This document shows, one piece after another, positions 59,143-61,853 of a DNA stretch of 64,000 nucleotides. The position numbers and the translations under genes were made by a program. Source of the stretch: Ruminococcus flavefaciens. Lineage in GTDB: Bacteria > Bacillota > Clostridia > Oscillospirales > Ruminococcaceae. Numbering within the stretch: position 1 is the stretch's first letter; each line of letters begins with the position of its first letter. The notes beneath the pieces are model-generated. The model saw only the letters and a program-made list of their open reading frames with translations. It ran no database searches and had not been told where the DNA came from. Location of the stretch: NCBI GenBank assembly GCA_023667045.1, contig JAMPAU010000006.1, positions 1 through 64,000 on the forward strand. The letters run 5' to 3'.

Positions 59143-59194
59143 GTTAACCACGGTTAACACAATCGTTGACATTTTACGGCGGTTGTGTTAATAT
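59143..59194 (+). promoter_or_regulatory. promoter of the formate-lyase operon with two palindromes
   Basis: TTGACA (59166-59171), 17 bases, TAATAT (59189-59194). GTTAACC-AC-GGTTAAC (59143-59158) lies just upstream, and TTAACACAA/TTGTGTTAA (59154-59162 with 59183-59191) brackets the -35 box and the start of the -10 box. The words resemble Rex redox-repressor sites (TTGTTAA/TTAACAA), but the half-site spacing is six rather than four. Confidence 0.6.
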
Positions 59195-59231: not shown

Positions 59232-61289
59232 ATGACTATGGAATTTGCTAAAGAATGGGAAGGCTTTACAGCCGGTAAATGGAGCACTGATATTAATGTC
59301 AGCGACTTCATCAAGAAAAACTACACACCTTACGACGGCGATGAGAGCTTCCTCGCTGGTCCTACAGAGGCTACAACAAAGCTTTGGGAGCAGGTTATGG
59401 ACCTCACTAAGCAGGAGCGTGAGGCAGGCGGTGTGCTTGATATGGATACTAAGATTGTTTCCACTATCACTTCACACGACGCTGGCTATCTCAACAAGGA
59501 CCTCGAAAAAATCGTAGGTGTTCAGACAGATAAGCCTTTCAAGCGTTCACTTCAGCCTTTCGGCGGTATCAGAATGGCTGTGAAAGCCTGTGAAGACAAC
59601 GGCTATACCGTTGACCCCGAAGTTGTAAAGATTTTCACAGATTACCGTAAAACTCACAATCAGGGCGTTTTTGACGCTTACACTCCCGAAATGCGTATGG
59701 CTCGTAAGTCTGCTATCATCACTGGTCTTCCGGACGCTTACGGCAGAGGTCGTATCATCGGCGACTACAGAAGAGTTGCTCTCTATGGTATCGACAGACT
59801 TGTTGAAGACAAGAAGCATCAGATTGAAACTTCACTCGTTAGAATGACTTCTAAGAATATCCGTCTCCGTGAAGAACTTGCAGAGCAGGTACGTGCTTTA
59901 GGCGAACTCAAGAAACTCGGCGAAATCTACGGCTTTGATATTTCTCAGCCGGCTAAGAATGCACAGGAGGCTGTACAGTGGCTCTACTTCGGCTACCTCG
60001 CTGCTGTTAAGGAGCAGAACGGTGCTGCTATGTCTCTCGGTCGTACTTCTACTTTCCTTGATATTTATATTCAGCGTGACCTCGATAACGGCGTTATCAC
60101 TGAAGAACAGGCACAGGAAATTATCGACCACTTCATTATGAAACTCCGTATTGTTAAGTTCGCAAGAACTCCCGAATACAATTCACTCTTCTCCGGCGAC
60201 CCCACATGGGTTACTGAATCTATCGGCGGTGTTGATGTTGACGGTCACCACCTCGTTACAAAGAACAGCTTCCGTTATCTCCATACTCTTGAAAATATCG
60301 GTACTGCTCCAGAGCCGAATATGACTATTCTCTGGTCTCAGAAACTCCCGAGAAAGTTCAAGGAATACTGTGCTAAGATGTCTATCAAGACTTCTTCAAT
60401 CCAGTACGAAAACGACGACATGATGAGAACTATCCACGGCGACGACTATGCTATCGCTTGCTGTGTATCTTCAATGAGAGTGGGCAAGGAAATGCAGTTC
60501 TTCGGAGCAAGAGCTAACCTCGCTAAGTGTCTCCTTTACGCTATAAACGGCGGTGTTGACGAAAGACTTAAAGTACAGGTTGGTCCTAAGTACAGAGCGG
60601 TTGAGGGCGATTATCTCGACTATGATGATGTTTGGGATAAGTACAAGAACATGATGGAATGGCTCGCAGGTCTTTACGTTAATACTCTTAACGTTATCCA
60701 CTATATGCACGACAAGTACAGCTATGAGAGAATCCAGATGGCTCTCCACGACAGAGATGTAAAGCGTTATTTCGCTACTGGTATTGCCGGACTTTCTGTT
60801 GTTGCCGACTCACTTTCAGCTATCAAGTATGCTAAGGTTAAGTGCATTCGTGACGAAGACGGCGTTGTTACTGATTACGAAGTTGAGGGAGATTTCCCGA
60901 AATACGGCAACAACGACGACAGAGTTGACGATATCGCTGTTATGGTTGTTCGTACATTCATGGATATGATTAGAAAGCACCATACATACCGTGACGGCGT
61001 GCCTACAATGTCTATCCTTACTATTACATCTAACGTTGTTTACGGTAAGAAGACAGGTAACACTCCCGACGGTCGTAAGGCTGGTATCCCGCTTGCTCCT
61101 GGTGCAAACCCGATGCACGGCAGAGATACTCACGGTGCAGCAGCTTCACTTTCTTCTGTTGCTAAACTTCCTTTCAAGCACGCTCAGGACGGTATCTCTA
61201 ATACATTCTCTATTATCCCTGGCGCTCTCGGCAAGGATATGGAAGTTTTCGCCGGAGACCTCGACCTCGACGCTATCAAGGGTGAATAA
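59232..61289 (+). CDS. pflB: pyruvate formate-lyase catalytic body lacking the glycyl-radical domain
   Basis: The 685-residue protein aligns with PflB from its start ([13 protein letters not shown]) through the adjacent catalytic Cys pair (AIACCVSSM, about residues 410-411) to [10 protein letters not shown]. It then stops, about 60-70 residues before the normal end. The missing part is the C-terminal glycyl-radical loop RVSGYA, which is encoded by a separate gene 284 bases downstream. The enzyme splits pyruvate with CoA to acetyl-CoA and formate. AAGGAG precedes the ATG. The break is at a domain border and the stop is followed by further small genes, so this looks like gene fission rather than damage. 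Confidence 0.93.
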
Positions 61290-61291
61290 TT

Positions 61292-61504
61292 GTGATTACT
61301 CCAGATATGCTTGGTCAGACCGATAACCCCCAAGAACTCGCCGACCTTATCGACAAGCTCATGGCAGAGGGCAGTGGTCATGTTAATATCTCGTCTAATG
61401 AAAGCGACGGAGGTCTTAAAGTCGATACTGTAAACAGCACCGACTGTGGCACTAAAGGTGCTTGTATGCAACCCACCGAGCTTGACCCCGATGACGAAGA
61501 TTAA
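61292..61504 (+). CDS. 70-residue acidic protein between the two formate-lyase parts
   Basis: It starts with GTG two bases after the pflB stop; AGGG lies about ten bases upstream. The segment [19 protein letters not shown] resembles the stretch [19 protein letters not shown] that opens the separate glycyl-radical protein, but RVSGYA is absent. The second half is acidic with two Cys ([12 protein letters not shown]). It is in a different frame from both neighbours. It may be an adaptor or a decayed copy of the radical domain; the function is unknown. Confidence 0.6.
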
Positions 61505-61572
61505 TTGCTATTGACGGGAAGCAGTCACCACTGTTTCCCCTCTATATAAATCTTTTAAGGAGGACTATTAAA

Positions 61573-61815
61573 ATGGAAAACAATGCAACACAGGTTAACA
61601 ACCTTATCGAACTCCTCGACGGTTACGTTGAAAAAGGCGGTCACCACCTCAATGTAAACGTATTTACAAGAGAAACACTTCTTGACGCTCAGGCACACCC
61701 CGAAAAGTACCCTCAGCTTACTGTAAGAGTTTCCGGTTATGCCGTAAACTTCGTTAAGCTTACTAAGGAACAGCAGGACGATGTTATTTCAAGAACATTC
61801 CACGCTTCTCTTTAA
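61573..61815 (+). CDS. stand-alone glycyl-radical domain of pyruvate formate-lyase
   Basis: The 80-residue protein is the C-terminal piece of Pfl[18 protein letters not shown], then [19 protein letters not shown] with the radical Gly55, and the end [15 protein letters not shown] precedes the ATG. E. coli GrcA (YfiD) is a similar stand-alone piece but serves as a spare part for damaged PflB; here the main protein lacks its own, so this subunit should be essential. The activating enzyme PflA is not in the window. A terminator follows. Confidence 0.92.
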
Positions 61816-61822
61816 TTAAATC

Positions 61823-61853
61823 AAAAGTCCGGAGTAACCTCCGGACTTTTTTT
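61823..61853. terminator. bidirectional terminator, formate-lyase operon / ddh
   Basis: GTCCGGAG and CTCCGGAC form a perfect stem with a four-base loop, with A residues before and seven T after. Confidence 0.85.

Follow-up and report, generated by a model that had tools for sequence, protein, structure and literature searches.

Three open reading frames lie in a row on the plus strand, each in a different frame, at positions 59232-61289, 61292-61504 and 61573-61815 of the window, the whole stretch of 64,000 nucleotides of Ruminococcus flavefaciens DNA that was analyzed. They encode the body of a pyruvate formate-lyase (PFL), a small middle protein, and a separate radical subunit that we call the tail. 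The genes and the elements around them are listed below.

59166..59194, plus strand: sigma-70-like promoter, TTGACA, 17 nt and TAATAT; from a consensus scan only, 10 of 12 matches; 37 nt upstream of the body start
59232..61289, plus strand: PFL body without radical domain, 685 aa; ORF, Pfam and NCBIfam match, alignment to E. coli PflB
60459-60464, plus strand: active-site cysteine codons in the body; alignment to E. coli PflB
61292..61504, plus strand: middle protein, 70 aa, GTG start, with an in-frame ATG at 61307; helix and strand resembling the radical domain, followed by an acidic end rich in Cys
61516..61539, plus strand: hairpin separating the middle gene from the tail gene; RNA fold, z -2.54
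61557-61563, plus strand: Shine-Dalgarno sequence AAGGAGG for the tail gene, 9 nt upstream of the tail ATG
61573..61815, plus strand: radical subunit (GrcA3-type tail), 80 aa, containing RVSGYAV; ORF, Pfam and NCBIfam match
61735-61737, plus strand: radical Gly55 codon in the tail; alignment to E. coli PflB
61823..61850, plus strand: intrinsic-terminator-like hairpin, 12-pair stem then a T run, 7 nt past the tail stop; consensus match only

Sites like the candidate promoter number 6 in the stretch, compared with a mean of 4.8 in shuffled sequences. A fold with z <= -2.5 was obtained for 6 of 8 folded intergenic stretches between middle and tail genes. The hairpin is seen at loci L014 (4929-5000) and L015 (4928-5000) as well, with a stem that differs between species.

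The body matches the PFL-like family PF02901 (8.4e-226) and, taken alone, the formate C-acetyltransferase model TIGR01255 with 1132.4 bits against a cut-off of 994.2, covering model positions 1-666 of 744. In the alignment to E. coli PflB, residues R176, W333, C418, C419 and R435 correspond to body R174, W326, C410, C411 and R427, which we take to be the active-site and substrate residues of PFL. This agrees with the initial annotation, which had described a 685-residue body that has both active-site cysteines and stops before the radical loop. The same annotation had placed the body end after PGALGKD; the missing radical domain stands, and the chain itself runs on for another 16 residues. Pfam, TIGR01255 and the PflB alignment all place the radical glycine outside the body, on the 80-aa chain, and body and tail together have 501 identities over 746 positions aligned with E. 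coli PflB. A structure prediction for the body (mean pLDDT 73, pTM 0.78; below 50 at 401-424, around C410-C411, and in most of 622-672) found E. coli PFL 2pfl as its best Foldseek match, with a TM-score of 0.90 by query.

The tail supplies what the body lacks. The Gly_radical model PF01228 is divided between the two chains almost without overlap, with positions 2-51 matched by the body and 50-106 by the tail (2.8e-23), and E. coli PflB G734 aligns with tail Gly55. Since its alignment to E. coli PFL begins at residue 681, the tail provides not only the radical loop but also the helix and strand ahead of it. It scores 164.1 bits against the NCBIfam model NF038360, 'autonomous glycyl radical cofactor GrcA3' (cut-off 158), and 97 bits against the GrcA/YfiD model TIGR04365, below the cut-off of 170. 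The RVSGYAV motif and the tail's own AAGGAGG site were both borne out, as was the location of the two parts in different frames with another gene between them. A Shine-Dalgarno-like stretch precedes the tail in all 80 loci with enough upstream sequence, a count to be read with the facts that starts were partly picked by this score and that 40% of shuffled stretches attain it.

The window genome (3.64 Mb, 112 contigs, completeness 99.99, estimated contamination 4.84%) yields two above-cut-off matches to PF01228, which are the two halves. This search found no full-length PFL in the genome, the gene that the initial annotation had named beforehand as evidence against a split enzyme. A third match, below the cut-off, lies in a 773-aa frame that is taken to be an anaerobic ribonucleotide reductase. 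One match to the PFL activase at E <= 1e-20 is located on a separate contig.

The arrangement recurs across the genus. Among 60 genomes including that of the window, a stand-alone tail was found in 54 and body plus tail in 53; one of the bodies (G032) is a partial frame, and one genome (G036) has the tail only. Five genomes gave no match at E <= 1e-4, and the remaining one, G058 (locus L180), encodes a full-length PFL (760 aa) but neither stand-alone tail nor middle protein; this PFL is either a replacement or the result of misbinning. Two body-middle-tail sets each were observed in G040 (contigs 48 and 9, one body being a partial frame) and G052 (contigs 70 and 41), and the split-PFL genes may thus duplicate as a unit. 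In Ruminococcus bicirculans 80/3 the cassette (L073, NZ_HF545617.1) is on a record titled chromosome II.

At the family level, 31 of 197 genomes have a stand-alone tail, each with exactly one match at E <= 1e-15 to a 119-residue query, and other glycyl-radical enzymes occur in some of these 31 genomes. Searching genome contigs with the tail gave at least 583 relatives, of which the best 80 were kept; the record titles mention Ruminococcus, other Oscillospiraceae, Lachnospiraceae, Erysipelotrichaceae and Gastranaerophilales, and most records are metagenome-assembled, so that individual labels may be in error. A PFL body end plus a tail was seen at 78 loci, the window and 77 of the best 80, and the locus script found no body at L045, L062 and L091. 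The conserved fission expected among Ruminococcaceae genomes is therefore seen in 53 of 60 genomes of the genus and at further loci in other groups. Among 299 genomes of the phylum, 96 match TIGR01255 and only two (G000 and G384) have the split type; among 293 genomes of the class, 159 have a match and at least two of the matches listed (G630 and G595) are of the split type, a lower bound because split bodies score low against PFL. Judged by these searches, the split type makes up the smaller share of PFLs except in certain lineages. Between body stop and tail start lie 4 to 446 nt, a spacing that is 0, 1 and 2 modulo 3 in 25, 28 and 25 of the 78 loci. The recurrence in 53 of 60 genomes and the presence of all three frame relations rule out a sequencing error, in line with the earlier statement that a single indel cannot explain the split.

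For 15 chosen pairs, dN/dS was 0.03-0.20 for the body (7 pairs, 8 bodies missing), 0-0.11 for the tail (14 pairs, one saturated) and 0.04-0.39 for the middle protein (12 pairs, three saturated). As these ratios indicate, body and tail are both under purifying selection.

Several peculiarities of related tails were also observed. At loci L045, L055, L062, L063 and L080, on records labelled Gastranaerophilales or Melainabacteria, some tails end with an extra SCGC, a second site of added cysteines, and the tails of L038, L054 and L087 are extended at the C-terminus by about 50-65 residues that include MPSDF. Tail matches occur in 1,539 of 50,697 phage records, mostly enterobacteria phages, and 42 of them cover at least 80% of the tail; among the matches listed, nine of those 42 records are unannotated and several of these are very short.

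The middle ORF of the window has no Pfam match at E <= 1. An ORF of 58-110 aa between body and tail, often overlapping the body end, is found in 47 of the 78 loci, and its products share a plan of a short helix-strand stretch, a spacer, at least two cysteines and an acidic end. The motif [A/P]C-x2-P is present in 46 of 47 middle proteins, and the preceding cysteine is separated from it by 5 residues in 21, 6 in 21, 7 in two and 8 in one of the 45 proteins measurable by pattern. When 40 members were searched, no dedicated Pfam or NCBIfam family was found; six Pfam families (E 0.045-0.091), none hitting more than two of the 40, were rejected as not meaningful, and a likeness to EF-hand proteins (centrin, troponin, calmodulin; E 0.03-0.8) was weak and due to the acidic helix.

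At E <= 1e-18, a profile of these 40 members found the middle protein in 53 of the 60 genus genomes, exactly those with body and tail by comparison of the lists by eye, and gave no match at this threshold in G058, G036 and the five PFL-less genomes; the other 51 matches of the profile (E 4e-5 to 1e-3) all overlap tails. Owing to this co-occurrence with both halves, the middle protein is probably a partner or third component of the split PFL. Its origin can be proposed as well. A profile comparison of middle protein and tail gave Prob 90.7 (90.9 in another run), limited to 30 columns, and a match to NF038360 at E <= 0.1 was obtained for 12 of 40 middle proteins (best 2.5e-5), in the N-terminal start only and without the radical loop. 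From these two results, the middle protein may have arisen by copying of the radical domain, with the glycine loop lost afterwards. The predicted structure of the middle protein is poor (mean pLDDT 59), with a helix at 13-26, strands at 30-35 and 42-47 and the remainder unstructured, and agrees weakly with this homology.

In the 31 of 78 loci without a middle gene, the body itself continues past GK[DE]...F.G, and at least two terminal cysteines are present in 30 of them. Such fused ends include LDCGCCEG, DCSNGACASPTLFEGLD and CPSCANIPN, and several are GCC or CGCC; these arms do not have the helix and strand of the middle protein. At L170 the middle protein ends in ACSSPTLFEGLD..., a sequence much like the fused arms of L056, L058 and L176, and this resemblance suggests that the two versions share one Cys module. 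Counted in either position, the Cys module is present in 77 of 78 split loci, the exception being L043. A body-tail pair was obtained at 15 of 17 further loci; the module is present in 13 of these pairs and missing from L166 and L175. With three split loci lacking it, the module is not strictly required. Its pattern was found in one of 58 single-chain PFLs (61 less L164, which was set aside, and two without LG anchor), and this one, L136, was rejected as an artefact, for the pattern began at an earlier LG site and the cysteines lie inside the body. By these sequence counts, the Cys module is linked to fission.

Phylogenetic trees were built from bodies of Bacillota and E. coli, with sampling of single-chain enzymes biased to high-scoring matches and bodies shorter than 450 aa dropped; after trimming, L169 is identical to L061. 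With FastTree, 149 bodies trimmed before the radical domain placed 88 split bodies in one clade (support 0.568), with the single-chain L164 just outside it and a support of 0.899 for split bodies plus L164. IQ-TREE in fast mode, with 62 of these bodies, 34 of them split, gave the latter group an SH-aLRT of 100 and placed L164 inside, beside L166, both on long branches. Split bodies together with L164 thus form one clade in the sampled trees. In L164 (275-2674, genome G150), a single chain, the body is separated from the radical domain by a Cys-rich insert, GCDNCSFGTTGAIGVQTELPPSL; L164 is either an intermediate or a re-fusion, and its placement differs between the two programs.

The split enzyme shares with single-chain PflB (TIGR01255; E. 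coli 2PFL/1H16) the body sequence, the active-site residues, RVSGYAV and a genomic activase, and differs from it in having the radical domain on its own chain and an extra Cys module. E. coli GrcA/YfiD (TIGR04365) is likewise a small stand-alone radical domain. According to PMC8683613, the first 60 or so residues of YfiD are disordered, and the protein serves to repair full-length PFL, whereas no full-length PFL was found here. The tail is a member of GrcA3 (NF038360), whose name implies an autonomous cofactor, yet at the loci studied here it is paired with a PFL body that has no radical domain. Among glycyl-radical enzymes, benzylsuccinate synthase and 4-hydroxyphenylacetate decarboxylase have extra small cysteine-rich subunits, and the radical glycine remains in the large chain. 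A small Cys-rich protein is common to these enzymes and the split PFL, a likeness by description only.

The solved chains closest to the body by sequence are PDB 38la and 38lb, both named 'Formate acetyltransferase'. The former (687 aa) ends in LGKED and the latter (739 aa) extends through GECDMCEMK; reading 38la as a shortened 38lb was dropped because the sequences differ. A search of the tail against PDB sequences found no match to it in 38la or 38lb. By sequence, the two chains resemble split bodies and would be either natural split bodies or cut constructs. Neither appears in the 50 listed Foldseek matches (copy to 8 April 2026), and both are therefore probably newer; judging by these entries, somebody may be working on split PFLs. 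We found no description of a split PFL in the open-access literature, which excludes preprints and contains few subscription papers, so that this weighs little; in PMC11528403, 'split' refers to EPR splitting, not to a split PFL. Given the GrcA3 name and the two PDB chains, the fission is not wholly new, and the new part is the Cys module with the middle protein.

Taken together, we consider it likely, on the basis of these genomic comparisons, that the split PFL is the only detected PFL of this genome and is naturally assembled from separately translated chains. If the body were instead the remnant of a truncated PFL and the tail an ordinary GrcA-type spare part, with PFL activity lost or marginal, the NCBIfam name of autonomous glycyl radical cofactor would be explained. 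Such a spare part would have no full-length PFL to rescue in the window genome, however, and the low dN/dS of body and tail, the same arrangement in 53 of 60 genomes of the genus and at loci of other groups, and the retained activase make decay very unlikely. The adjoining, ordered genes would also suit a joining of the halves in translation, through programmed frameshifting or bypassing, into one chain. This we regard as extremely improbable, because the spacing varies from 4 to 446 nt through all three values modulo 3 (25, 28 and 25 of 78), an intervening ORF is present in 47 loci, and the tails have their own Shine-Dalgarno-like stretch in 80 of 80 loci, subject to the start choice and the shuffle rate given above.

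The Cys module and the middle protein call for a separate weighing. That the middle ORF is a by-product without PFL function would fit its having no Pfam or NCBIfam family of its own and the missing of a separate middle gene in about half of the split lineages examined (31 of 78), but the protein is present in exactly the 53 genomes of the genus with both halves, its dN/dS is 0.04-0.39, and the Cys end reappears on bodies where the middle gene is missing, so that we give this reading little credence. A stronger contender, to which we assign a chance only somewhat short of even, accepts the split PFL as real and takes the Cys module for a metal or Fe-S site or an aid to docking and assembly, with the middle protein as a substitute for the stub that YfiD binding needs in E. 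coli PFL. Fused ends such as LDCGCCEG do look metal-binding, and the middle protein resembles the part of the chain at E. coli residues 696-733, the recognition element for YfiD according to PMC8683613. The number and spacing of the cysteines are nevertheless variable, unlike those of a typical fixed metal site, docking by itself leaves the cysteines unexplained, and the helix and strand are missing from the fused arms.

It is possible, though tentatively so, that the Cys module is instead a dithiol arm like that of ribonucleotide reductase (RNR). The C-terminal arm of class Ia RNR reduces the active-site disulfide. The class Ia enzyme NrdA has a flexible acidic end with C...GAC, and in E. coli this end is DDGCESGACKI; the body end of L176, LCENGACFSPTLFEGLDRD, resembles it over a short motif only, with no homology claimed. 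The cysteines of NrdA are spaced CX4C, whereas those of middle proteins are mostly CX5C or CX6C (42 of 45). A dithiol arm is favoured in our scheme by this likeness together with the active-site cysteine pair of PFL, which would be exposed when the radical subunit is away.

We infer from the comparisons above that body and tail assemble, that the assembly has PFL activity, that the tail can be exchanged, and that the middle protein or Cys arm has a role in this enzyme. The body, comprising the barrel, the substrate sites and Cys410-Cys411, would have to bind the 80-aa subunit, which would contribute a helix, the closing strand of the barrel and the loop with the radical glycine. The activase of the genome would charge the tail glycine, and the ordinary PFL cycle would then run. 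Oxygen attack at this glycine would cut the 80-aa chain only, and a fresh copy could take over. The hairpin between the middle and tail genes may set differing amounts of body and tail mRNA. The middle protein would derive from a copy of the first part of the radical domain, its loop swapped for a Cys-rich arm; our best guess is that it docks at the site of the radical subunit and keeps or reduces the active-site cysteine pair. In lineages without the middle gene, the Cys arm would be attached to the body itself.

There is a precedent in E. coli for such pieces working in trans. According to PMC8683613, charging with YfiD succeeds for E. coli PFL cut at residue 695, although binding is weaker and the radical yield lower, and the charged enzyme has activity equal to wild type; residues 696-733 serve as the recognition element for YfiD. 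This result also hints that something may take the place of the missing stub, and by analogy the middle protein could be that replacement or could serve as a placeholder. The fullest version of the scheme, which we offer as speculation, is an enzyme of three parts: a barrel whose socket is empty, a radical plug that is disposable, and the middle protein as a look-alike plug with a dithiol arm in place of the glycine loop. The look-alike would occupy the socket whenever the radical plug is missing or uncharged, reducing or shielding the active-site cysteines as the RNR arm does. This would amount to a built-in cycle of oxygen survival, with L164 as an intermediate or a re-fusion.

Many gut and rumen bacteria depend on PFL for central fermentation, and it is the textbook example of an enzyme that oxygen destroys because the radical sits in its own backbone. 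With the radical on a separate and possibly replaceable subunit, the parts could be mixed to study how the radical is loaded, exchanged and repaired. In genome annotation, a short formate acetyltransferase beside a 'GrcA' should be counted as one enzyme. The Cys module, tied as it is to fission, would offer a specific clue to how the exposed active site of such an enzyme survives.
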